DNA of 37,661 nucleotides from Bacteroidota bacterium (GTDB lineage: Bacteria > Bacteroidota > Bacteroidia > B-17B0 > Aurantibacillaceae), in assembly GCA_030681615.1 (NCBI GenBank), contig JAUXSA010000133.1:1-37661 (forward strand). Direction: 5' to 3'. Shown here piece by piece: positions 22,329 through 34,596 of the stretch. Within the stretch, counting starts at the first letter, position 1, and each line of letters begins with the position of its first letter. Below the pieces are notes generated by a model, which was not told where the DNA came from, did not search any database, and worked only from the letters and a program-made list of their open reading frames with translations. A program made the position numbers and the translations under genes.

Positions 22329-23222
22329 ATGTCATTCTTCTCAGAAATAGCTCATGAATTTTCATCTCAAAACACACAGTTTTGGAATTACACAAAAGAT
22401 AGCTTAAAACATCCAGCACTTAAAAATGTATATTATGCGGTTCTGCTAGCCTACTTGTTTTGCTTTTTTCTTGAAGTAGTGCTTCCAAAGCAACGCAAAC
22501 ATGGTGTTATGTCACGCAAATATTTTTGGCAGGATACATTTTATGTTTTATTTAACGACTTGCTTTTAAACGTATTGGGCTTTTTTGCATTATGCGCAGT
22601 TACCGAATTTGTGCTTTTAAAATTTTTACTTCTATTCGATATTCATAGTTTAAAAGTTACAGATATCACACACCTCAATCCGCTTTTACAGATCCTTATC
22701 ATGTTCATTTTGCAGGATTTTTGCGAATATGTAGCTCATATTTTTTTACACCGTTCCAATTTTTTCTGGGAATTTCACAAGATCCATCATGCCCAGGAAG
22801 AGCTCGGCGCAGCTTCAACCCGCCATTTTCACTGGGTTGAAATGCTGGTGTTTAAACCCCTGATCTATATCCCGTTTGCCTTAATAGGTTATTCTGCTGT
22901 AGATTATTTCCTTTTTCAAATAACGGTTCAAAATGTTTGGGGTTTTTTTACGCACACCAATATAAAAGTAAGGTGGGGTTGGTTAAATTATATTTTTAAT
23001 ACCCCCGAAACCCATGCCTGGCACCATGCCAAAAACATTGACAAAAAATACGGTGTAAATTTTGCCTCTATCCTTAATATTTGGGATCTTATGTTTGGGC
23101 ATTTTTATTTACCAAAAGGCAAACAGCCAATTTTGGGCGTTGAAGGCGGTAAAGAAGTACCCAATACATTCATCGGGCAGTTCTTTTACCCGTTTAAGAA
23201 ACATTTCGGTAAGAAAAAGTAA
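22329..23222 (+). CDS. sterol desaturase/fatty-acid hydroxylase family membrane di-iron enzyme
   Basis: A 297-residue integral membrane protein. Histidine clusters of the family are present: HIFLHR and FHKIHH in the HRSNFFWEFHKIHHAQEE region, RHFHW, and HAWHHA near the C-terminus. These bind the di-iron centre that uses O2 to hydroxylate or desaturate lipids. Four to six membrane helices surround them. In Bacteroidota such proteins hydroxylate carotenoid, fatty-acid or sphingolipid-like substrates; nothing here identifies which. It begins 50 bases after the GNAT gene and is about 3 kb from the lipid cluster. A functional link is possible but not shown. Confidence 0.85.
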   Translation: MSFFSEIAHEFSSQNTQFWNYTKDSLKHPALKNVYYAVLLAYLFCFFLEVVLPKQRKHGVMSRKYFWQDTFYVLFNDLLLNVLGFFALCAVTEFVLLKFLLLFDIHSLKVTDITHLNPLLQILIMFILQDFCEYVAHIFLHRSNFFWEFHKIHHAQEELGAASTRHFHWVEMLVFKPLIYIPFALIGYSAVDYFLFQITVQNVWGFFTHTNIKVRWGWLNYIFNTPETHAWHHAKNIDKKYGVNFASILNIWDLMFGHFYLPKGKQPILGVEGGKEVPNTFIGQFFYPFKKHFGKKK

Positions 23223-26340: not shown

Positions 26341-27120
26341 ATGAGCAATTACCTTTCAATTCCGTTAATTTCCTGGGCAGTAGTAGCCGTTATAATGGTC
26401 ATTATTTGGTTCTGGGCCTTAAAGATCAAGAACAATGGTATCGTAGATATTTTTTGGGCATTTAACTTTACTGTTATTGCAGGTATTATCTGGTATTTAG
26501 CGGATGGCGATCCTCAAAGAAAGAATTTAGTTTGTGCGCTGGCGGGTTTATGGAGTTTACGTTTAGGCATCTATTTATTAATACGTGTGGGCGGTCACAT
26601 TAAAGAAGAAGAAGGTCGGTACAAACAATTACGTTTAGAATGGAATGATACGAAATTTTTTTTCTTCTTCCAGATGCAGGCATTTTCAAATGTGATGTTA
26701 GCCATACCTTTTTTCATTATCGCTCTTAATCCAAATCCGGAAATATCCATCATCGAATACATTGGCGCGGGCTTATGGTTCTTATGTATTATTGGCGAAG
26801 GTATTTCTGACTGGCAACTACAATACTTTAAAAAACATAATACTGTAAAAGGAAAAGTATGTGAATTTGGTCTGTGGAATTATTCACGTCACCCAAATTA
26901 TTTTTTTCAATTTTCTTTATGGATCTCTGTTTTAATTTTCGCATTACCAAGCCCATACGGTTGGATCTCTGCGATTTGCCCATTGTCTATTGGTTATCTG
27001 TTATTTAAAGTAACGGGCATTCCTATGACCGAAGAACAAGCAGTTCGCAGTCGTGGTGCCGCATACAAAGAGTATCAGCGCACAACAAGTGTTTTTGTAC
27101 CCTGGTTCAAAAAAAAGTAA
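26341..27120 (+). CDS. DUF1295 (steroid 5-alpha-reductase-like) membrane protein
   Basis: First gene of the lipid cluster, 259 residues, with six or seven membrane helices. The C-terminal DUF1295 signature is present as GLWNYSRHPNYFFQF followed by GIPMTEEQAVRSRGAAYKEY. The fold is shared with steroid 5-alpha-reductases and isoprenylcysteine methyltransferases: an NADPH- or SAM-binding pocket open to the membrane. No member of the bacterial family has a role I am sure of. Immediate coupling (three bases) to a CFA/CNMT-like methyltransferase gene argues for action on the same membrane lipid, for example reduction of an unsaturated or methylene intermediate. A TACATTTT box abuts the ATG. Confidence 0.85.
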   Translation: MSNYLSIPLISWAVVAVIMVIIWFWALKIKNNGIVDIFWAFNFTVIAGIIWYLADGDPQRKNLVCALAGLWSLRLGIYLLIRVGGHIKEEEGRYKQLRLEWNDTKFFFFFQMQAFSNVMLAIPFFIIALNPNPEISIIEYIGAGLWFLCIIGEGISDWQLQYFKKHNTVKGKVCEFGLWNYSRHPNYFFQFSLWISVLIFALPSPYGWISAICPLSIGYLLFKVTGIPMTEEQAVRSRGAAYKEYQRTTSVFVPWFKKK

Positions 27121-27123
27121 AAT

Positions 27124-28152
27124 ATGTTTTACGATAAATTACTAGAAAAGGATAAACTTCCCGACTCTCTCATTCGAATTGGTATTCGCAAACTATTAAC
27201 ACAGCGTTTACAGGATGAGAATAAAGGAAATACCGAAGCGCAACAAGCGCACTTAATGCAATTAATAGCCGAATTAAAGGCCTCACCTATTGCAGTTAAT
27301 ACACAAGAAGCAAACGAACAGCATTACGAAGTTCCAACTCAATTCTACCAATATTGTTTAGGAAAACATTTAAAGTACAGCAGCGGTTATTGGAAAGAAG
27401 GCGTTACTGATATCAATACTTCCGAAAAAGACATGTTGGAATTAACCTGTCAACGAGCAGAATTAAAGGATGGACAGGATGTATTGGAACTAGGTTGTGG
27501 CTGGGGCTCACTTTCGTTATTTATGGCAGCAAAATTTCCGAAAAGTAATTTTACGGTTGTATCTAACTCGCGTACGCAAAAAATTTATATCGACGAACAG
27601 GCAAAACAAAGAAGCATTTATAATCTTACTGTAATTACCATAAATATTAACGATTTTGTTTTAGATAAAACCTTTGATCGTGTTGTTTCTGTGGAGATGT
27701 TTGAGCACATGCGTAATTACCAAAAATTAATGCATAAAGTGGCTACGCTTTTAAAACCCGAAGGAAAGTTGTTCGTTCATATTTTTACACATAAAGAGTA
27801 TGCATATAAATTTGAAGTAAAAGACGAAAGCGATTGGATGAGTAAATATTTTTTTACCGGTGGTATTATGCCAAGCGATGATCTGTTACTTTATTTTAAC
27901 GAACATTTAAGCATTGAGAAACACTGGCACCTGAGTGGCACCCATTATAGCAAGACCTCTGAAGCCTGGCTTCAAAATATGGATAAGCATAAAACTGAAA
28001 TAATTCCTTTGTTCGAGCAAACCTACGGTAAAGAAAATGCTGTAAAATGGTGGGTGTACTGGCGCATATTTTATATGGCCTGCGCCGAATTATGGAACTA
28101 TAACAATGGCGAAGAATGGATAGTGAGTCACTATTTATTTACCAAAAAATAA
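27124..28152 (+). CDS. CFA/coclaurine N-methyltransferase-like SAM methyltransferase
   Basis: A 342-residue class I methyltransferase of the CFA synthase superfamily. HYEVPTQFYQYCLGKHLKYSSGYW (about 67-90) is the cap region, motif I is VLELGCGWGS (120-129), and EMFEHMRNY (191-199) carries the catalytic-type Glu/His pair. The overall pattern is closer to plant coclaurine N-methyltransferase and its bacterial relatives than to classical CFA synthase, whose N-terminal lipid-binding domain is missing. The C-terminus WWVYWRIFYMACAELWNYNNG is typical of this subgroup. The substrate could be a lipid or an amine. It sits three bases after the DUF1295 gene and four before the hydrolase gene. Confidence 0.83.
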   Translation: MFYDKLLEKDKLPDSLIRIGIRKLLTQRLQDENKGNTEAQQAHLMQLIAELKASPIAVNTQEANEQHYEVPTQFYQYCLGKHLKYSSGYWKEGVTDINTSEKDMLELTCQRAELKDGQDVLELGCGWGSLSLFMAAKFPKSNFTVVSNSRTQKIYIDEQAKQRSIYNLTVITININDFVLDKTFDRVVSVEMFEHMRNYQKLMHKVATLLKPEGKLFVHIFTHKEYAYKFEVKDESDWMSKYFFTGGIMPSDDLLLYFNEHLSIEKHWHLSGTHYSKTSEAWLQNMDKHKTEIIPLFEQTYGKENAVKWWVYWRIFYMACAELWNYNNGEEWIVSHYLFTKK

Positions 28153-28156
28153 AACT

Positions 28157-29287
28157 ATGTGGCGTTTAATTGTTACAGGTCTTCTTTTTCTTTTATCTTT
28201 AATGGTGTTCTTTAAAGCGCCTACTAATTTTTTTTGGCGGGTATCAGTTGCAATCACCGAATTTCCTTACATCTTTATCCTTGCATCGTTGTTATTTTTC
28301 TTTGTTTGTTTAAAAGCCAATAAATACAAGACGGTAGTTGTAACTCTCAGTAGTATTACTACTTTAATTTATATTCTTCCACTTATCCAGGTTTATGTGC
28401 GTGGGAATAATTTAGAAGAAGATCTCAAAAAAAAATTCCCCTTTAAAGAGAATGAACAACATCTGCAACAGCCCTACTCTTTTATAAAAATGTTTAGCGG
28501 TATTAATCCTAAAGAAATTGCGCCGCAAATTTTTGCTTATAAAAAATTACCTGAAAGAGAACTGAATATCGATTTTTATCCTTCAAAGACAAATTCCGTA
28601 TCTCCTTGTGTAATTGTTGTACATGGCGGCTCATGGGCAGAGGGTGACAGTAAACAACTACCGGACCTAAACAGTTATTTAGCCAACAAAGGTTATCATG
28701 TGGCAGCTATCAATTACCGCTTGGCGCCCAAATATAAGTCGCCCGCACCAGTAGAAGACGTTAGAGATGTAATAAAATATCTTACTACAAATTCCGAGAA
28801 ATTAAAGATCGATACATCCAACTTTGTTTTACTTGGCCGTTCGGCAGGTGGGCAAATTGCTTTGTGTGCCGCTTATACTTACAACTTACCAAATATTAGA
28901 GGTGTAATTTCGTTTTACGCTCCTGCCGATATGGTTTGGGGCGCAAGAATAAAAAGTAATAAATTGGTATTAAACACAGATAAAGTTTTTACAGATTATT
29001 TAGGGGGCCTTATAGATGAAGTCCCGCAAAAATATCATGAAGCAGGTGCAATAGATCATGTAAACAAAAATTCAACTCCAACGTTAATTATTCATGGCGT
29101 GCATGATGCCATGGTAGCATATGGACATAGTGAACGCCTGGATAAAAAATTAGAGGAGAACAATGTTCAACATTACTTCTTAAATTTACCCTGGGCCACA
29201 CATGGCTGCGACTATAATATTAACGGGCCAAGCGGCCAAATAACAACTTTTGCAATTGAACGTTTTTTAAACTCAGTAACACATTAA
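28157..29287 (+). CDS. alpha/beta hydrolase with N-terminal membrane segments
   Basis: A 376-residue protein. Three hydrophobic helices occupy about 1-20, 33-52 and 59-80, followed by an alpha/beta-hydrolase domain of the carboxylesterase (BD-FAE/HSL-like) type. The oxyanion motif HGGSW is at 156-160 and the nucleophile elbow GRSAGG has Ser229. The acid and base come from HGVHDAMV and ATHGCD near the C-terminus, so the triad looks complete. Membrane anchoring and the neighbouring lipid enzymes suggest an esterase or lipase acting on membrane lipids or releasing a modified acyl chain; this is inference. Its stop shares one base with the next start (TAATG). Confidence 0.82.
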   Translation: MWRLIVTGLLFLLSLMVFFKAPTNFFWRVSVAITEFPYIFILASLLFFFVCLKANKYKTVVVTLSSITTLIYILPLIQVYVRGNNLEEDLKKKFPFKENEQHLQQPYSFIKMFSGINPKEIAPQIFAYKKLPERELNIDFYPSKTNSVSPCVIVVHGGSWAEGDSKQLPDLNSYLANKGYHVAAINYRLAPKYKSPAPVEDVRDVIKYLTTNSEKLKIDTSNFVLLGRSAGGQIALCAAYTYNLPNIRGVISFYAPADMVWGARIKSNKLVLNTDKVFTDYLGGLIDEVPQKYHEAGAIDHVNKNSTPTLIIHGVHDAMVAYGHSERLDKKLEENNVQHYFLNLPWATHGCDYNINGPSGQITTFAIERFLNSVTH

Positions 29288-30546
29288 TGCAAACATTAGC
29301 TATCATAGGAACAGGAATTGCAGGCATGGGTTGCGGGCATTTGCTTCAAAAAAAATACGATATAACTTTGTTTGAACAGAACAATTATATTGGTGGGCAC
29401 ACCAATACATTTTCTACAGATGAGGATGGCAATAAAGTTTTTATGGACACAGGTTTTATGGTATTTAATTTTGAAACCTACCCAAACCTTTGCAAATTAT
29501 TTGACGAAATAAAGGCGCCTATCAAAAAAACAGATATGTCGTTTAGTGTGCAACACACGGCAAGTGGTCTTGAATATTGTGGCTCAGGACTAAATGGTTT
29601 ATTCGCTCAACGTAAAAACATCTTTAATATTGGCTACATTAAAATGCTAATGGAGATAACACGCTTTAATAAAATAAGCGTAGAAATTTTAGATGATCCA
29701 AGATATGAGAATCATTCTTTAGCACAATACATTAAAGAATTTAATTTCAGCGAAGAGATGCTTTGGAAATATTTAGTTCCAATGAGTTCTGCCGTTTGGA
29801 GCACACCAATGGATAAGATGTTGGATTTTCCTGCTGTTGCACTTATTCGATTTTTTAAGAACCATGGTTTTTTGGGATTGAATACACAACACCAATGGTA
29901 TACTTTAGAAAATGGGAGCCAGGCCTATCGCGAGCTCTTAATTAAACCGTTTAAAGATCGGATACATATAAATAATGCTGGCGTAAAAGTTAGTCGTAAT
30001 ACAAATGGCAAAGCCACTATTCATTTAAAAGATGGTACATCAAAAGAATTTGATAAAGTTATTTTTGCCTCACACGCCGATGAAACTTTAAAAATATTAG
30101 ACCAACCAACCGTAGAAGAAAAAAGATTATTGAGTCTGTTTAAATATCAAAAAAACATCGCAACGGTTCATACAGATGAAGCAACCATGCCCAAAAACAA
30201 AAAAACCTGGAGCAGCTGGAATTACAGGATAGAAGAACGTAACGGTAAACAGATCCCAACTACTATTTATTGGATGAACAGTTTGCAAGGTGTTTCTAAA
30301 AAGAAAAATTATTTTGTTTCTATAAATGCTATTCCCGGAACTGTGAATAAATCTAGAATCTTAAAAGAAATAGATTACGAGCATCCGTTGTTTGATATAG
30401 CAGCTATAAACGCACAAAAAGAATTACAAACATTAAATGAAAAAGGCCCATTATATTATTGTGGAAGTTATTTTAAATATGGCTTTCATGAAGATGCTTA
30501 TGCCAGTGCGGTAGAACTTTGTAAGAAGCTACTAATTACTAATTAA
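29287..30546 (+). CDS. FAD-dependent amine-oxidase-like oxidoreductase of the lipid cluster
   Basis: A 419-residue flavoprotein. The dinucleotide fold starts at once with GTGIAGMG (Gly8, Gly10, Gly13) and Glu30 ends beta-2 (LFEQNNYIGGHTNTF). The body carries the sequence pattern of the amine-oxidase/protoporphyrinogen-oxidase-like proteins found beside CFA-synthase-like genes in many bacteria, and equivalent to the N-terminal half of plant cyclopropane synthases. The C-terminal FAD contact is YYCGSYFKYGFHEDAYASAVE. It probably oxidises or desaturates an acyl chain or supports such a step. Translation is coupled to the hydrolase gene. A GxxExxY cassette separates it from its natural partners DUF1365 and CFA synthase. 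Confidence 0.88.
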   Translation: MQTLAIIGTGIAGMGCGHLLQKKYDITLFEQNNYIGGHTNTFSTDEDGNKVFMDTGFMVFNFETYPNLCKLFDEIKAPIKKTDMSFSVQHTASGLEYCGSGLNGLFAQRKNIFNIGYIKMLMEITRFNKISVEILDDPRYENHSLAQYIKEFNFSEEMLWKYLVPMSSAVWSTPMDKMLDFPAVALIRFFKNHGFLGLNTQHQWYTLENGSQAYRELLIKPFKDRIHINNAGVKVSRNTNGKATIHLKDGTSKEFDKVIFASHADETLKILDQPTVEEKRLLSLFKYQKNIATVHTDEATMPKNKKTWSSWNYRIEERNGKQIPTTIYWMNSLQGVSKKKNYFVSINAIPGTVNKSRILKEIDYEHPLFDIAAINAQKELQTLNEKGPLYYCGSYFKYGFHEDAYASAVELCKKLLITN

Positions 30547-30604
30547 TACGAATGTACGAATCCAGCCGCCTATTACGAAACACGAATTAATCTACGAATC
30601 GTAG
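30547..30604 (+). repeat. ACGAAT array, left flank of the GxxExxY cassette
   Basis: Five ACGAAT-like hexamers occur in 58 bases (at 30548, 30556, 30574 with one mismatch, 30582 and 30594), starting directly after the oxidoreductase stop. The last runs into a small palindrome, CTACGAATCGTAG. The complementary hexamer ATTCGT is repeated on the other side of the GxxExxY gene. Confidence 0.75.
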
Positions 30605-30640
30605 CAACAAGGAATATATTTAAACCATTATCTTAGTATT

Positions 30641-31042
30641 ATGGAAAGCACTCTTAAAAGAAACGATCTGGTTTATCCTGAATTAAGCTATAAAATAATT
30701 GGTTGTGCTTTTGAAGTTTTTAATGAATTAGGTTTTGGTCATGCAGAAAAATATTATCAAAAAGCTATGGCAATTGCACTCAAGAACACAGGGTTGACTT
30801 ATAAAGAACAATTCTACGCGCCATTAAAATTCCAGGGTGAGTTAGTTGGAAAATTATATCTGGACTTTTTGGTAGAAGAAAAGATCATCATTGAATTAAA
30901 AAAGAACGCTCATTTTTCAAAATCTAATATCGATCAGGTAAATCAATATCTGTTATCGAGTAAGCTACAATTAGCACTTCTTATAAACTTTTCATCAAAA
31001 GGCATTATTAGTAAACGACTTGTTAATATTGAACAAGGATAA
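30641..31042 (+). CDS. GxxExxY protein (PD-(D/E)XK nuclease-fold family)
   Basis: A 133-residue protein named for its conserved motif, seen here as GHAEKYY in ELGFGHAEKYYQKAMAIAL. The second block GKLYLDFLVEEKIIIELK has the Asp...Glu-x-Lys arrangement of PD-(D/E)XK nucleases, and the C-terminal VNQYLLSSKLQLALLINF is typical. The family is common in Bacteroidota and cyanobacteria, often in repeat-rich intergenic positions; its function is unknown. It is the only gene in this operon with long flanks (94 bases upstream, 53 downstream), both full of ACGAAT/ATTCGT hexamers. There is no obvious relation to lipid metabolism. Confidence 0.9.
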   Translation: MESTLKRNDLVYPELSYKIIGCAFEVFNELGFGHAEKYYQKAMAIALKNTGLTYKEQFYAPLKFQGELVGKLYLDFLVEEKIIIELKKNAHFSKSNIDQVNQYLLSSKLQLALLINFSSKGIISKRLVNIEQG

Positions 31043-31061
31043 TTCCTGAAAATAGGGTATT

Positions 31062-31095
31062 GATTCGTAAATTCGTATTTTATTCGTAATTCGAA
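31062..31095 (-). repeat. ATTCGT array, right flank of the GxxExxY cassette
   Basis: ATTCGT occurs at 31063, 31070 and 31082, and ATTCG once more at 31089, ending at the GTG start of the DUF1365 gene. On the minus strand these read ACGAAT, so they are in inverted orientation relative to 30547-30604. Confidence 0.75.
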
Positions 31096-31893
31096 GTGAA
31101 TAGTTGTTTATATAAAGCCACCGTCATGCACAACCGTATGAAGCCAGTTTCTCACAGGTTTCATTACAATGTGTTTATGTTTTATATTGATCTTGATGAA
31201 ATAGAACAATTAAAAAAGAAGCTCTTGCTTTTTAGCCATAATAGATTTAATTTTTTTAGCTTCAGGGATAATGAGCATTTGCAATTACCAATAGAGAAGC
31301 CGGATAGAAGTAAAACTACAAAACAACATATTTTAAACTATTTGCAAAAGAATAATGTTACGCCTACTCCAACAAAAATAATGTTGCTTACCAATTTAAA
31401 TGTGTTGGGTTACAATTTTAATCCTGTTTCGTTTTACTATTGTTTTGACGAAAAAGATCAGGCAATTTGTTGTATTGCCGAAGTTGGAAATACCTTTGGA
31501 GAAATGAAGCCCTATCTTTTGAATAAGGAAAACTTAACTGGTAATACATTTCATTTAAATACCTCGAAGTACTTTTATGTTTCTCCTTTTATAGACCATG
31601 ATGCCAATTTTGATTTTAACCTGGTAATTCCATCCGAAAAATTAAACAATAAAATAGATACATATAAAGATGATGAACGTATTTTTATAAGTACTTTAAC
31701 TGGGATCAAAAAGCCAATAAATAATGGGAATTTATTTTGGTACAGTATCCGCTTTCCCTTTATTACCCTCAAAATAATTACTTTAATTCATTGGAATGCC
31801 CTTAAACTCTGGAGAAAAAAGATCCCATATCACAAAAAAGGCGAAAATCAACATCTGCAAAAGGATGTTTTTCGTAAGTATAAAAACGATTAA
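31096..31893 (+). CDS. DUF1365 protein of the lipid cluster
   Basis: A 265-residue protein matching DUF1365: MNSCLYKATVMHNRMKPVSHRFHYNVFMFYIDLDE at the N-terminus, LLTNLNVLGYNFNPVSFYYCFD, and a C-terminal basic region. The start is GTG at 31096, chosen because it gives the family's usual MNSxLY opening. DUF1365 genes occur next to the amine-oxidase-like protein and CFA-synthase-like genes in proteobacteria, and a member lies in the singlet-oxygen-induced operon of Rhodobacter sphaeroides. The biochemical function is unknown; association with an unusual fatty-acid modification is the accepted inference. The start codon directly abuts the repeat array, so its translation signals may have been supplied by the cassette. 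Confidence 0.87.
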   Translation: MNSCLYKATVMHNRMKPVSHRFHYNVFMFYIDLDEIEQLKKKLLLFSHNRFNFFSFRDNEHLQLPIEKPDRSKTTKQHILNYLQKNNVTPTPTKIMLLTNLNVLGYNFNPVSFYYCFDEKDQAICCIAEVGNTFGEMKPYLLNKENLTGNTFHLNTSKYFYVSPFIDHDANFDFNLVIPSEKLNNKIDTYKDDERIFISTLTGIKKPINNGNLFWYSIRFPFITLKIITLIHWNALKLWRKKIPYHKKGENQHLQKDVFRKYKND

Positions 31894-31915
31894 AAATGTA
31901 AGGATTAGACAAAAA

Positions 31916-31951
31916 ATTCGTCTATTTTTAGTGTAATATTCTTAAATTCGT
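31916..31951. repeat. further ATTCGT hexamers before the CFA-synthase-like gene
   Basis: ATTCGT occurs at 31916-31921 and 31946-31951 in the 69-base gap before the gene at 31963. These are the same hexamers as in the GxxExxY flanks and in the orientation of the right flank. They may be a remnant of, or a second target for, the same repeat family; two hexamers alone could be chance. Confidence 0.4.
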
Positions 31952-31962
31952 GATTAAGATAA

Positions 31963-33201
31963 ATGGCAACAGTAACCACCATAGCAACAAAACAGGGCTT
32001 TTATGAGAAAGTGATCTTAGATCTGCTTTCTAAAATGCAATTGGGGACCCTTAACATAACTTTGCCAAGCGGCCAGTTAGTTAAGATCGGTAATGGCGGA
32101 AGCAATATTGAAGCAAATATTGAAATTAATGATCCCATTTTTTTTAAGCGTTGTGTATTGTACGGTGATATTGGTTTTGGCGAATCATATACTGATGGAG
32201 AATGGAATACAGATAACATTACCAATGTTATAAAATGGTTCCTGCTTAACGTTGATAATGCTCCAACAGCATCAGGAAGCTCAACAAAAAGCCTTGCACT
32301 AAATCTTTTTAAAATCGCCAACAAATTGTATCATTTAAAAAGAAGCAATAGTCTTAACGGTTCAAGAAAGAACATATCGGCACATTATGACCTCAACAAC
32401 GAATTTTTTGCTCTTTTTTTAGATGAGACCATGACCTACTCCTCTGCCTATTTTAAAAAAGAAGGCATGACCTTAAAAGAAGCACAATTAGCCAAATATG
32501 ATCGTTTATGCAAACAACTAAATTTAAAAGCGAGCGATCATGTGTTAGAAATTGGTAGCGGCTGGGGCGGCAATGCTATTTATATTGCACAAAACTATAA
32601 CTGCAAAGTTACAACAGTAACTATTTCTGAAGAGCAATACAAATTAGCAAAAGAACGCGTTGAAAAAGAGAACCTAACCGATAAAATTACAGTTGTTTTA
32701 AAAGATTACCGTTTATTGGAAGGTAAATTTGACAAGATCGTTTCTATTGAAATGTTGGAGGCTGTTGGTGCAGAATTTTACAATACTTATTTTAAAAAAT
32801 GCAGCGATCTTTTAAAGAAGGATGGCATTTTTGCAATACAGGTTATTACTTGTCCTGACTCACGCTTTGAGAGTTTAAAGAATGGGGTTGACTGGATACA
32901 GAAACATATTTTCCCTGGTTCTTTATTGCCTTCGGTAGCGGCTATAAACATGTCTGTTAACGAATCCTGCGACCTTACCCTGGTAGACCTTAAAGATATT
33001 GGTTTAGATTACGCGCACACTTTAAAGATCTGGCACCATGAATTCAATAAAAATATTGATAAAGTTAAAGCCTTAGATTTTGACGATTATTTTATCCGTA
33101 AATGGAATTATTATTTATGTTACTGCGAAGCAGCCTTTGCTATGAGAAATATTAATGTAATGCAGTTGGTTTATACCAGACCGAATAATACAAATAGGTA
33201 A
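31963..33201 (+). CDS. cyclopropane-fatty-acyl-phospholipid synthase family methyltransferase
   Basis: A 412-residue enzyme with the full CFA-synthase layout: an N-terminal lipid-binding domain (about 1-120, with GDIGFGESYTDGEW) and a SAM methyltransferase domain. HYDLNNEFF is at 141-149, motif I VLEIGSGWGG at 194-203, and EMLEAVG at 263-269 with the catalytic Glu266. Compared with E. coli Cfa, the bicarbonate-site Cys of YSCAYW is Ser161 and the His of LLHTIG is Gln293. The MLEAVG and Gln features resemble the plant cyclopropane synthases and the methyl-branched/furan fatty-acid enzymes. It should methylate the double bond of a phospholipid acyl chain; whether the product is cyclopropane, methyl-branched or a furan precursor is open. 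Confidence 0.9.
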   Translation: MATVTTIATKQGFYEKVILDLLSKMQLGTLNITLPSGQLVKIGNGGSNIEANIEINDPIFFKRCVLYGDIGFGESYTDGEWNTDNITNVIKWFLLNVDNAPTASGSSTKSLALNLFKIANKLYHLKRSNSLNGSRKNISAHYDLNNEFFALFLDETMTYSSAYFKKEGMTLKEAQLAKYDRLCKQLNLKASDHVLEIGSGWGGNAIYIAQNYNCKVTTVTISEEQYKLAKERVEKENLTDKITVVLKDYRLLEGKFDKIVSIEMLEAVGAEFYNTYFKKCSDLLKKDGIFAIQVITCPDSRFESLKNGVDWIQKHIFPGSLLPSVAAINMSVNESCDLTLVDLKDIGLDYAHTLKIWHHEFNKNIDKVKALDFDDYFIRKWNYYLCYCEAAFAMRNINVMQLVYTRPNNTNR

Positions 33202-33258
33202 AATGTAATATGGAAAAAGGAAGATGGATTACCTTTTCCGTTTTACCTCTTACATTTT
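33200..33258. terminator. probable bidirectional terminator between convergent genes
   Basis: AAAATGTAA (33200-33208) pairs with TTACATTTT (33250-33258), and inside it GGAAAAAGG (33212-33220) nearly pairs with CCTTTTCC (33232-33239). The structure fills the whole 60-base gap between the convergent stops of the CFA-synthase-like and transporter genes. It has A/T-rich edges but no long T run, so the terminator role is likely rather than certain. Confidence 0.45.
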
Positions 33259-33261
33259 CCA

Positions 33262-34596
33262 TTATTGTTTCTCTTTAAACCTTGTAAAAATAATTGCTGC
33301 TAAAAAGCAAAGCACAAAACCTAAAATTCCATTGAGGCGAATACCAAAATCATTTCCAATATCTTTACCGTAAATTAAAAACATGGCAAATAAAGCAATA
33401 CCAAAGGTTTGCGCGATCTTCACAAAAAAGTAACGTACGGCAAAATAAATAGCTTCTTTATTTTCGTTGGTTTCTTCTGTATCTTTTTCAATGATCTCGG
33501 CAAGAATTGCATTAGGCAAAATATTTAAGGATGCCAAAGGAATAGCCGCAAAAGCGATCAATGAATAGATCTGTACTAAAGGATCAATTTCGGACTTCCC
33601 TAAAAAATAGATCCCTAAAAAAATTGTTGATAATAGTACCAGCGAAAAAACAACAATTATTTTTTTGCCAATTTTTTTTGCGAGATAATTTATTACAGGG
33701 TAAAAGATAAAAGATACAAGCACCATCATGATCATGAGTTTGTTACCAATCGTTTCAGGGAGTTGTAATAATACAGTTACAAAATACATTAAACCGGAAG
33801 TGATAATTGTTACCGCAATAAAATAAGAGAAATCCGCCACAATAAATAACTGGAAATTTTTATTGGTAAGCGTTTGTCGTAACGCTTTTCTCATTGGCAC
33901 GGCACTTGGTTTGCTGTGGCAATATTTTTTTTCATCAATGGCTAAAACTGTTACCAGCATAAAAACCGCTGCCAGTGCTGCCATTAAAATAATAGTTAAT
34001 TGTAAGGCCGAGATGCGTGAAGCAATGCCTACAGAATTTTGCAGAACATCCGTCAAATTAAAAGCATTAGATGCAATGCCAATACCAAACACATAACCCA
34101 CAGATTGCCAGGTTGCCAAACGTACTTTGTCTTCCGAACCAGGTGCTAGTTCCGGAAGCAAAGCATTATAAGGAATGATGTAGGTGGTTGAAGAAACGTA
34201 AAATCCTATCAACATAAAAACTAACCAAACAATATTTAATGTACATTCTTCTTCACGCAAAGGATAAAAAACAAGGCAACAAAAAATAAGAGATGGTATG
34301 ATGGCCAGTTTCATTAATGGGATTCTGCGTCCTTTAGGATTTTTGCTTTGATCGCTGAACTGCGCGATGAAAGGATCGTACACAGCATCTACCAGTCTAC
34401 CACTGGCAGTAACAATTGCAATAACATTAAAGATGCCAAAAATAGCAACCTGTGTAATTAAATTTGGAAGGCCGCTACTAGTTGGTGGAATGTATAAATA
34501 AACGAGAATAACACTTATCAAATTGATCATAATGCTCCAACCCATCATGCCAAAAGCATAAGCAACCTGTTTACCAAAAGGGAGTTTTTTAGCCAA
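33262..34596 (-). CDS. MFS transporter of the GPH (glycoside-pentoside-hexuronide) family
   Basis: A 444-residue protein with about 12 membrane segments. The GPH signature in the first cytoplasmic loop is clear: DAVYDPFIAQFSDQSKNPKGRRIP. Family members are cation symporters, mostly for sugars, but proteins of this type occur beside amine-oxidase/DUF1365/CFA genes in proteobacteria (one lies in the R. sphaeroides singlet-oxygen operon), where a lipid-related substrate is possible. It converges on the CFA-synthase-like gene and starts five bases after the phosphatase-fusion gene, with which it is co-transcribed. The substrate is unknown. Confidence 0.85.
   Translation of the reverse strand: MAKKLPFGKQVAYAFGMMGWSIMINLISVILVYLYIPPTSSGLPNLITQVAIFGIFNVIAIVTASGRLVDAVYDPFIAQFSDQSKNPKGRRIPLMKLAIIPSLIFCCLVFYPLREEECTLNIVWLVFMLIGFYVSSTTYIIPYNALLPELAPGSEDKVRLATWQSVGYVFGIGIASNAFNLTDVLQNSVGIASRISALQLTIILMAALAAVFMLVTVLAIDEKKYCHSKPSAVPMRKALRQTLTNKNFQLFIVADFSYFIAVTIITSGLMYFVTVLLQLPETIGNKLMIMMVLVSFIFYPVINYLAKKIGKKIIVVFSLVLLSTIFLGIYFLGKSEIDPLVQIYSLIAFAAIPLASLNILPNAILAEIIEKDTEETNENKEAIYFAVRYFFVKIAQTFGIALFAMFLIYGKDIGNDFGIRLNGILGFVLCFLAAIIFTRFKEKQ

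Follow-up and report, generated by a model that had tools for sequence, protein, structure and literature searches.

Judged from its sequence, the locus described here most likely serves to build furan fatty acids in a Bacteroidota bacterium, with a pathway known from purple bacteria joined by a second methylation enzyme, a conserved reductase-like partner and a different control. It is likely that the enzymes of the cluster form dimethyl furan fatty acids on the acyl chains of membrane phospholipids. In the window, i.e. the whole stretch of 37,661 nucleotides that was analysed, the list of open reading frames and the family profiles gave a run of seven plus-strand genes at 26341-33201 with an MFS_2/GPH-family transporter converging on it (Table 1). 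This bore out the dense run of lipid genes and the converging transporter of an earlier note on this DNA. That note did not contain the GxxExxY ORF and the redoxin-PAS-SpoIIE ORF, which lies 5 nt upstream of the transporter. The data presented below support what the note chiefly inferred, namely that Bacteroidota have a version of the furan-fatty-acid genes linked to RpoE/ChrR, under another control.

Table 1. Features of the cluster and its flank (positions in the window).
Feature	Position	Strand	Evidence
DUF1295 protein, 259 aa, predicted membrane enzyme, conserved FufM neighbour	26341..27120	+	PF06966 201.6 bits
FufM-like SAM methyltransferase, 342 aa	27124..28152	+	CMAS fold 130.8 bits; 6gkv E 1.8e-80
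BD-FAE alpha/beta hydrolase, 376 aa, optional cluster part	28157..29287	+	PF20434 146.1 bits
UfaD-like FAD-dependent acyl-chain desaturase, 419 aa	29287..30546	+	Amino_oxidase/NAD_binding_8
GxxExxY/PDDEXK_3 ORF, probable passenger	30641..31042	+	TIGR04256 105.3 bits
UfaO-like DUF1365 protein, 265 aa, proposed oxygenase	31096..31893	+	PF07103 251.4 bits
UfaM-like SAM methyltransferase, 412 aa	31963..33201	+	CMAS 301 bits
MFS_2/GPH-family transporter, 444 aa	33262..34596	-	PF13347 149.4 bits
AhpC/TSA redoxin (RGDWCPGC) + PAS + SpoIIE phosphatase, 773 aa	34602..36923	-	domain profiles

The steps by which UfaM, UfaD, UfaO and FufM make furan fatty acids were shown in the alphaproteobacteria R. sphaeroides and R. 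palustris (PMC7380195, cited throughout for its passages on these genes). From homology, gene order and co-occurrence we infer the same steps for the present cluster. UfaM would carry out the first methylation on a cis-unsaturated phospholipid acyl chain, UfaD would desaturate the resulting methyl-branched chain so that a conjugated diene is formed, and UfaO would close the furan ring with O2. FufM would then add the second methyl group, converting the monomethyl to the dimethyl furan acyl chain. All three pathway families, i.e. CMAS methyltransferase, FAD-dependent amine-oxidase-like desaturase and DUF1365, are found together at the locus, and the order UfaD-UfaO-UfaM is that of RPA2571-2570-2569 in R. 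palustris (PMC7380195).

Co-occurrence in other genomes had been set beforehand as the check that might refute the earlier inference, and the genes were found to co-occur closely. The cluster is not a chance assembly: UfaD, UfaO and UfaM adjoin one another in most of 31 further loci from the phylum, and the greater part of the block recurs around FufM in 80 named loci. All four genes were present in 57/80 named FufM loci, invariably in the order UfaD-UfaO-UfaM (57/57), with FufM before them in 53 and after them in 4. Of 394 genomes from the phylum 11 had UfaO, and these 11 alone had FufM (p ~1e-21, uncorrected for kinship). Among 60 relatives UfaO was present in 22, FufM in 22 and both in 21; 22/22 of the FufM genomes also had a complete or partial DUF1295 with an identity of 57% or more. 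The four-gene set occurs together in Bacteroidota, Verrucomicrobiota, one Omnitrophota MAG and on proteobacterial plasmids. Seven plasmid regions, picked for taxonomic spread from 44 matching records, were read. UfaD, UfaO and UfaM were all present in 6/7, and 5/7 carried a sigma-70-family factor beside an anti-sigma factor (ChrR-family in four, unnamed in one) in the same stretch as DUF1295-FufM. Protein comparisons refer to these untested plasmid orthologues (23-54% identity), not to RSP1090, RSP1091, RSP2144 or RPA0924 themselves; UfaO was 23-36% identical to its counterparts and UfaD 35-39% in 7/7 regions.

Alternatively, the cluster might make another chain (cyclopropane, methyl-branched or methyl-diene) and no furan, with the CNMT-like enzyme methylating e.g. 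an amine or another lipid. CNMTs do methylate amines, and UfaM belongs to the CMAS family. Yet UfaM remained below the NCBIfam cyclopropane-synthase cut-offs of PRK11705 (297 vs 400 bits) and CPFASynBruc (314 vs 600) as well as that of CfaB (224 vs 650). From the bicarbonate pocket of cyclopropane synthases (reference residues C139, E239, H266, I268 and Y317) UfaM keeps E266, I295 and Y350, with C139 changed to S161 and H266 to Q293; S161, E263, A267 and Q293 are common to the proteobacterial cluster members. In cotton cyclopropane synthases the residue reported at the place of H266 is Q, and in two of the three enzymes C139 is replaced by S (PMC3132707). Because these enzymes carry the same changes, the pocket signature appears compatible with a cyclopropane product too and does not settle furan versus cyclopropane. 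Furthermore, two genomes, G419 (99% complete) and the L095 MAG, hold FufM, DUF1295 and UfaD without DUF1365, so that in some genomes FufM may act on a different substrate. G419 apparently is the Sediminibacterium MAG of locus L134. In one genome (G421) UfaO, UfaD and UfaM are present without FufM. On the other hand, the joint confinement of UfaO and FufM to 11 genomes and the recurrence of the four-gene set argue for a furan product, and we regard the alternative as improbable.

Dimethyl furan fatty acid is the product to be expected because the second methyltransferase fits FufM. The unusual acyl chain of the earlier note, for which it left several options (methyl-branched, cyclopropane or furan), is thereby narrowed to this one expected product. 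Nor does the second methyltransferase depart from the known pathway as had been thought, since it fits FufM of R. palustris best (PMC7380195). Its closest solved relative is coclaurine N-methyltransferase 6gkv (E 1.8e-80, as against 1.9e-29 for cyclopropane synthase 6bqc); it is 26% identical to UfaM of the same cluster, and E191, E194 and H195 were invariant across 13 sequences. The plant protein AT4G33110 is one that we take to be CNMT-like. It has been described as the plant homologue of RPA0924 (PMC10940516), and RPA0924 in turn is 26% identical to UfaM (PMC7380195).

The UfaO-like DUF1365 protein is the proposed furan-forming oxygenase. Its model (pLDDT 92) is a predicted beta-barrel, for which the best folds, both weak, were the OlmO spirocyclase (Z 7.0) and nitrobindin (Z 6.5). 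The BD-FAE hydrolase, with an N-terminus hydrophobic by eye, was found in 14/32 and the transporter in 18/32 loci of the phylum, each count including this locus; on a Mesorhizobium plasmid, too, a BD-FAE hydrolase adjoins DUF1295-FufM. Both may be accessory, perhaps for modified or oxidised chains. The GxxExxY ORF, which separates ufaD from ufaO, probably is an inserted passenger outside the pathway. It is bracketed by 18-nt arms (30545-30562 and 31062-31079, 94% complementary) and occupies the same place in 5/32 loci of the phylum including this one.

DUF1295, a Pfam family without assigned function, proved to be a faithful FufM neighbour from Proteobacteria to Bacteroidota. It lies no more than 250 nt 5' of FufM in 64/77 loci and directly 5' of it in 7/7 proteobacterial plasmid regions, so it is not peculiar to Bacteroidota. 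The model (pLDDT 88.5) is predicted to have a steroid-5-alpha-reductase-like fold. VIA-align gave Z scores of 13.9 for PbSRD5A, 13.4 for delta14-sterol reductase and 13.0 for SRD5A2, with 13-14 being near the level at which it advises caution for helical proteins. These were followed by ICMT (11.6 and 11.3), a chain of the Ycf2-FtsHi complex (10.3) and then 7.2; Foldseek returned E values of 0.33 and 0.59 only, none significant. Steroid_dh (PF02544) scored 28.7 bits over a cut-off of 22.6. In SRD5A2 NADPH is bound by N160, D164, R171, N193, E197, R227, H231 and Y235, and Q56-E57-Y91 are catalytic (PMC7815742). With N160, D164 and N193 as the only positions reliably placed in the alignment, D157 and N186 of DUF1295 correspond to D164 and N193 in 58/58 sequences and E153 to N160. 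DUF1295 resembles the steroid 5-alpha-reductases SRD5A2 and PbSRD5A by its fold model and the Steroid_dh profile; its sequence had no significant match in the PDB.

We tentatively propose, at less than even odds, that DUF1295 uses NADPH to reduce a C=C bond of an acyl chain that is either furan-derived or oxidised. It is also possible, though less likely than not, that it is no reductase and instead an ICMT/PEMT-type SAM-dependent membrane methyltransferase acting on a lipid head group or acyl chain. ICMT has the same fold, the C-terminal RHPNY block aligns with ICMT 4a2n (profile E 0.03) and a distant DUF1295 of the cluster matches ICMT and PEMT too. Yet the three top structural matches are reductases, Pfam gives Steroid_dh and not ICMT over the cut-off, and D157 and N186 fall on NADPH residues of SRD5A2.

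Regarding control, no sigma or anti-sigma factor was seen among the ten proteins scanned around the interval, as the earlier note had stated for its view. No match to ChrR (TIGR02451) exceeded the cut-off in the organism's own genome or in any of 31 DUF1365 carriers searched (31/32 covered, G415 left out; the Caulobacter positive control responded); one match was sub-threshold (G156, 19.9 bits). A MerR-B12 (LitR/CarH-type) regulator was absent beside this cluster. The own genome had one match of 24% identity on another contig (C92), and 9/11 searched in-genus genomes without DUF1365 had one also. Thus the different control held as far as ChrR is concerned, and a candidate replacement, the redoxin-PAS-SpoIIE protein, sits just outside the interval of the earlier note.

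We tentatively name this protein as the sensor replacing ChrR, a candidate for organisms that have the pathway without ChrR. Its redoxin domain would read the peroxide or thiol state and the SpoIIE phosphatase would act on a downstream regulator. The protein, whose N-terminus is hydrophobic by eye and which in seven genomes is divided between two adjacent ORFs, was present in 21/24 pathway-positive versus 0/36 pathway-negative relatives, a count that kinship in the genus may inflate. There is a substantial chance, if short of an even one, that it is unrelated to the pathway and was co-inherited in the clade, its adjacency being plain synteny with dnaK and the transporter. All eight adjacent cases have the same flank with UbiE upstream of the cluster, and one genus supplies most of the count. 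Three pathway-positive genomes (G395, G415 and G447) have no redoxin-PAS-SpoIIE protein, and in G404, where a DUF1295 fragment was all that was found of the pathway, it stands beside a transporter. On the other hand, 12 pathway-positive genomes keep it on another contig, where its neighbourhoods fall into four types shared between genomes and one that is unique, and no negative genome has it; outside the genus it was present in 3/4 pathway-positive and 0/19 negative genomes.

Upon quenching of singlet oxygen a furan opens to an ene-dione. One could envisage a closed repair cycle under its own redox control, with redoxin-PAS-SpoIIE in place of ChrR, although we consider this quite unlikely. The furan chain would be converted to the ene-dione, DUF1295 with NADPH would reduce the latter by the enone chemistry of steroid 5-alpha-reductases, and the furan could re-close. 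Redoxin-PAS-SpoIIE would sense the resulting peroxide or thiol state and set expression, and the peroxide-reducing step would come from thiol-peroxidase genes beside other versions of the cluster. In L019 and L048 the cluster adjoins a gene for a glutathione peroxidase, and in Mucilaginibacter a gene for a PrxQ-like protein lies 5' of it.

Furan fatty acids have been connected with singlet oxygen, both in defence and in signalling, and are thought to mop up reactive oxygen in membranes. In Bacteroidota and in Verrucomicrobiota the four-enzyme dimethyl set forms a single cassette, and cultured species of Pedobacter and Mucilaginibacter are among the carriers. RSP1089 of R. sphaeroides is presumably a GPH transporter. 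According to the passage on these mutants in PMC7380195, the fatty acids of a chrR-deleted strain did not change detectably when RSP1087, RSP1088 or RSP1089 was deleted singly. The earlier note counted the CFA-like gene among the parts of the RpoE/ChrR-controlled operon of R. sphaeroides, yet this gene, ufaM, is RSP2144 and lies outside the RSP1091-1087 operon (PMC7380195).

In Chlamydomonas, genes for CFA1, CFA2/CPLD27, DUF1365 and DUF1295 are SAK1-dependent and induced by singlet oxygen, and Table 9 names CFA2/CPLD27 a coclaurine N-methyltransferase (PMC4067076, passages on this gene set). DUF1295 by name thus also figures in the singlet-oxygen response of a green alga; this host is a eukaryote and the likeness is by annotation only. 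The light-controlled ufaM of Pseudomonas, of the LitR/CarH type (PMC9758184, passages on its control), finds a parallel in four other loci of the phylum (L019, L048, L049 and L050), in which a MerR-B12 gene adjoins the cluster, in contrast to the present one. With the ECF11 RpoE/ChrR core regulon (PMC6852236, passages on its gene content) the cluster has the furan-fatty-acid genes in common, whereas ChrR did not exceed the cut-off in 31/31 carriers searched. With UfaM/UfaD/UfaO of R. sphaeroides and R. palustris (PMC7380195) it shares the three families and the gene order of R. palustris; it differs in the Bacteroidota host, in FufM and DUF1295 lying in the same run and in ChrR not being found. 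Finally, RPA0924, the 9M5-FuFA methylase, is as here a second methyltransferase with about 26% identity to UfaM (PMC7380195). The two are likened by family, not protein to protein, and in the present cluster the FufM-like gene lies directly with the ufa genes.

From its homologies, the cluster is best read as a furan-fatty-acid locus, with known chemistry placed in a new setting. In the pathway of R. sphaeroides and R. palustris, cis-vaccenoyl phospholipid chains are methylated by UfaM and the product is desaturated by UfaD; the furan forms when UfaO (DUF1365) inserts an oxygen derived from O2, and a second methyl group comes from FufM (RPA0924) (PMC7380195). FufM and UfaM of that pathway share 26% identity (PMC7380195); a homologue of FufM in Arabidopsis is AT4G33110 (PMC10940516). 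The window's CNMT-class methyltransferase and its UfaM, a CMAS protein, are likewise 26% identical.

Features of the cluster and its flank
Feature	Position	Strand	Remark
DUF1295	26341-27120	+	
CMAS-fold methyltransferase (FufM-like)	27124-28152	+	nearest coclaurine N-methyltransferases
BD-FAE alpha/beta hydrolase	28157-29287	+	
FAD amine-oxidase-like protein (UfaD-like)	29287-30546	+	
GxxExxY ORF	30641-31042	+	
DUF1365 (UfaO-like)	31096-31893	+	
Second CMAS protein (UfaM-like)	31963-33201	+	
MFS_2/GPH transporter	33262-34596	-	convergent with cluster
Redoxin-PAS-SpoIIE protein, 773 aa	34602-36923	-	hydrophobic N-terminus (by eye), AhpC/TSA, PAS, SpoIIE phosphatase; upstream of transporter on its strand

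A UbiE gene upstream of the plus-strand run ends 67 nt before it, and an FA_hydroxylase-family gene lies upstream of the cluster at 22329-23222. In the genome that carries the window (4.28 Mb in 199 contigs; 97.8% complete) DUF1365 is single-copy and located in the cluster; the best CMAS match elsewhere reached 33.7 bits. Recent horizontal import was rejected because the G+C content of the cluster (34.2%) is close to that of the remaining window (34.9%) and Bacteroidota rows stay mostly together in a quick tree of FufM (66 rows, with SH-aLRT as the sole support measure and 22 of 63 inner branches left open). Their region encloses two Ignavibacteriota rows and one Omnitrophota row. Promoter and terminator scans did not rise above what shuffled sequence gives.

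Few genomes of the phylum have DUF1365 (6 of 148 and 11 of 394); it was present in 22 of 60 relatives, 18 of these being among the 37 that belong to the own genus. A FufM-like protein occurred in the identical 11 of the 394 phylum genomes and in 22 of the 60 relatives, 21 of them in common with UfaO; the p values of these co-occurrences take no account of kinship. The genome G421 (430 contigs) has UfaO without FufM, which was searched for genome-wide and not found, and G419 has FufM without UfaO. DUF1295, whole or partial at an identity of at least 57%, was detected in 22/22 FufM genomes among the 60 relatives, and fragments at the same identity also in G421 and G404.

The 32 phylum loci including the window contained UfaO in 32, UfaD and UfaM in 31 each, FufM in 29 and DUF1295 in 26 cases, in addition to the transporter (18), a fatty acid desaturase (15), the hydrolase (14) and DUF1475 (7). 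For L061 and L062 FufM was located elsewhere in the genome, on a different contig; for L066 (G421) the search found none. When named genomes were scanned with the FufM alignment, at least 582 pattern matches came up, of which 573 were confirmed and the best 80 analysed. The latter came from Mucilaginibacter, Pedobacter, other Bacteroidota, Verrucomicrobiota, Ignavibacteriota, Omnitrophota and one Leptospiraceae MAG. The complete set of four was present in 57 of these 80 loci, and in 48/58 where the locus spans 16 kb or more; the cultured carriers Mucilaginibacter frigoritolerans (L101) and Pedobacter suwonensis (L116) both have it. Four-gene loci kept the order D-O-M in 57/57, with FufM before it in 53 and after it in 4. 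UfaO was missing from 20 of the 80 loci. Seven of these, truncated by contig ends, were left out, and the genomes of the other 13 were searched together with that of L098, where UfaO is more distant. DUF1365 was found in 12/14 genomes; this whole-genome search yielded none in two MAGs, that of L095 and that of L134 (apparently identical with G419). The earlier note had proposed a neighbourhood search, and DUF1365, CMAS and DUF1295 genes do recur together across Bacteroidota loci; chance assembly of the cluster was rejected on the basis of this recurrence.

In L017, L018, L047, L056, L059, L064, L065 and L067-L070 a gene 5' of DUF1295 encodes a fatty acid desaturase, in which three histidine boxes were recognised by eye; it may supply the unsaturated chain. 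The window cluster itself is without it. Mucilaginibacter clusters are preceded by an AhpC/TSA-type thiol peroxidase of 178-183 aa with a signal-like N-terminus (about 7400-8800 in L092, L096, L097, L099, L101, L106, L108 and L111; Pfam assignment from L101 only).

DUF1295 is a strongly associated partner of the furan locus. Of the best 80 loci, 77 have 900 nt or more of upstream sequence, and in 64 of these 77 DUF1295 is no farther than 250 nt 5' of FufM; in the remaining 13 it is elsewhere in the locus (5) or not in the locus (8). A single-sequence search returned no solved relative for DUF1295 or UfaO. For the DUF1295 model (pLDDT 88.5), Z was 13-14 against PbSRD5A, a delta14-sterol reductase and SRD5A2, 11.6 against ICMT and 10.3 against a chain of the Ycf2-FtsHi complex. 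Foldseek also ranked PbSRD5A and SRD5A2 first, but with E values of 0.33 and 0.59. Pfam Steroid_dh scored above its cut-off, and D157 and N186 align with D164 and N193 of SRD5A2, which are described as NADPH residues (PMC7815742).

The model of UfaO (pLDDT 92, mainly beta) had OlmO and nitrobindin as its nearest folds, both with Z below 8, which at most hints at a calycin-like barrel. H12, R14, P17, G105, F108, N109, N132, T133, K158, S163, P164, F165, I231 and A235 were unchanged in 45/45 sequences. In FufM E191, E194 and H195, invariant in 13 sequences, align with the ExxEH block of the CNMT 6gkv, which is presumably catalytic in this class of enzymes. UfaM was aligned with 6bqc, which we take to be the E. 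coli CFA synthase. E266, I295 and Y350 match kept residues of the CFA-synthase pocket; every row has E at position 263 and A at 267. The position of C139 is occupied by S161 (28/30 of those Bacteroidota-phylum rows that have any residue there, 6/6 proteobacterial) and that of H266 by Q293 (30/30 and 6/6). The paper that sets out the five residues of the pocket reports cotton synthases with the Q, two of them with the S as well (PMC3132707). Because cotton synthases show the same changes, the pocket residues leave the product of UfaM unsettled, and we dropped them as a disproof of a cyclopropane synthase.

The GxxExxY ORF between ufaD and ufaO is flanked by 18-nt arms, 94% complementary and 499 nt apart (30545-31079); two occurrences of this arm pattern were counted in the window, where 0.09 would be expected. 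The same site holds a 23S-rRNA-IVP-type ORF in L057, L058 and L063, an opposite-strand ORF pair in L015 and next to nothing in L060 and L068. The ufaD-ufaO gap is probably a hot spot at which small elements carrying ORFs insert.

The earlier note had seen no ChrR, and a search of 31 of the 32 carrier genomes (G415 left out) bore this out: none scored above cut-off, while a Caulobacter control was positive. There was one sub-threshold match (G156). For these carriers control by ChrR was rejected. LitR/CarH control of the window cluster was not supported; it seems possible at L019, L048, L049 and L050. In these four loci the furan cluster has two divergent neighbours, a MerR-B12 (LitR/CarH-type) gene, whose product in L019 contains a W-x9-EH stretch, and a member of a second DUF1295 subfamily (about 30% identical); L019 and L048 also have a glutathione peroxidase.

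A candidate regulator is the redoxin-PAS-SpoIIE protein. With E values up to 1e-120, and genomes counted as pathway-positive by any of UfaO, FufM or a DUF1295 with 57% identity or more, it was found in 21 of the 60 relatives, namely 21/24 pathway-positive and 0/36 others, kinship being uncorrected by a species tree. Pathway-positive G395, G415 and G447 lack it. Outside the genus it occurred in 3/4 pathway-positive and 0/19 negative genomes. It adjoins the cluster in 8 genomes and in G404 stands beside a transporter with no cluster there. In 12 genomes it is on another contig, where four neighbourhood types are shared between genomes and a fifth occurs once; since these are draft genomes, another contig need not mean a distant position. 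Across the window and L221-L227 the protein occurs both fused and as neighbouring split genes; redoxin and PAS-SpoIIE are two adjacent ORFs in G409, G419, G420, G422, G434, G435 and G446; the last (L224) has three tandem redoxin copies ahead of the PAS-SpoIIE gene. RGDWCPxCHMM is kept in all alignment rows except two L224 tandem copies (CHIM) and the matches of L065 and L070 (40-44%), which were excluded because they are without this motif.

The FufM-like protein matched 44 plasmid records with up to 54% identity, and seven proteobacterial regions were picked for spread. DUF1295 is directly 5' of FufM in 7/7; UfaD, UfaO and UfaM are all present in 6/7, R. johnstonii having UfaD only. This layout suggests two sub-units, DUF1295-FufM and UfaD-UfaO-UfaM, which change their arrangement yet remain together. 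A sigma-70-family factor with an anti-sigma factor occurs in 5/7 (ChrR-family in four, unnamed in one), and the ChrR link was observed in proteobacterial stretches only. Deletions of RPA0923, which adjoins fufM, were built by Lemke et al., with no phenotype reported in the available part of the source.

The literature search, with subscription journals mostly outside its scope, found no link of DUF1295 to furan fatty acids and nothing joining furan fatty acid, singlet oxygen and dioxo; for Pedobacter, Mucilaginibacter and Verrucomicrobia, none among the matches listed named a furan fatty acid. In Chlamydomonas the log2 changes in wild type and sak1 were 5.92 and 1.16 for CFA1, 4.05 and 0.18 for CFA2, 3.50 and 0.40 for a DUF1365 gene, 3.04 and -0.16 for a DUF1295 gene, and 3.25 and 0.08 for a DUF2177 gene, with SOUL haem-binding and fasciclin-like proteins listed alongside (PMC4067076, Table 5). 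CFA2 is called coclaurine N-methyltransferase in Table 9 of the same paper. DUF2177, fasciclin and haem-binding genes flank the Mesorhizobium cluster too, the algal side of this likeness being by annotation only; the parallel between the CFA genes of Chlamydomonas and Rhodobacter has already been pointed out (PMC8491031). With respect to R. palustris, where ufaD, ufaO and ufaM are RPA2571, RPA2570 and RPA2569 (PMC7380195), the window carries the matching D, O and M genes in identical order.
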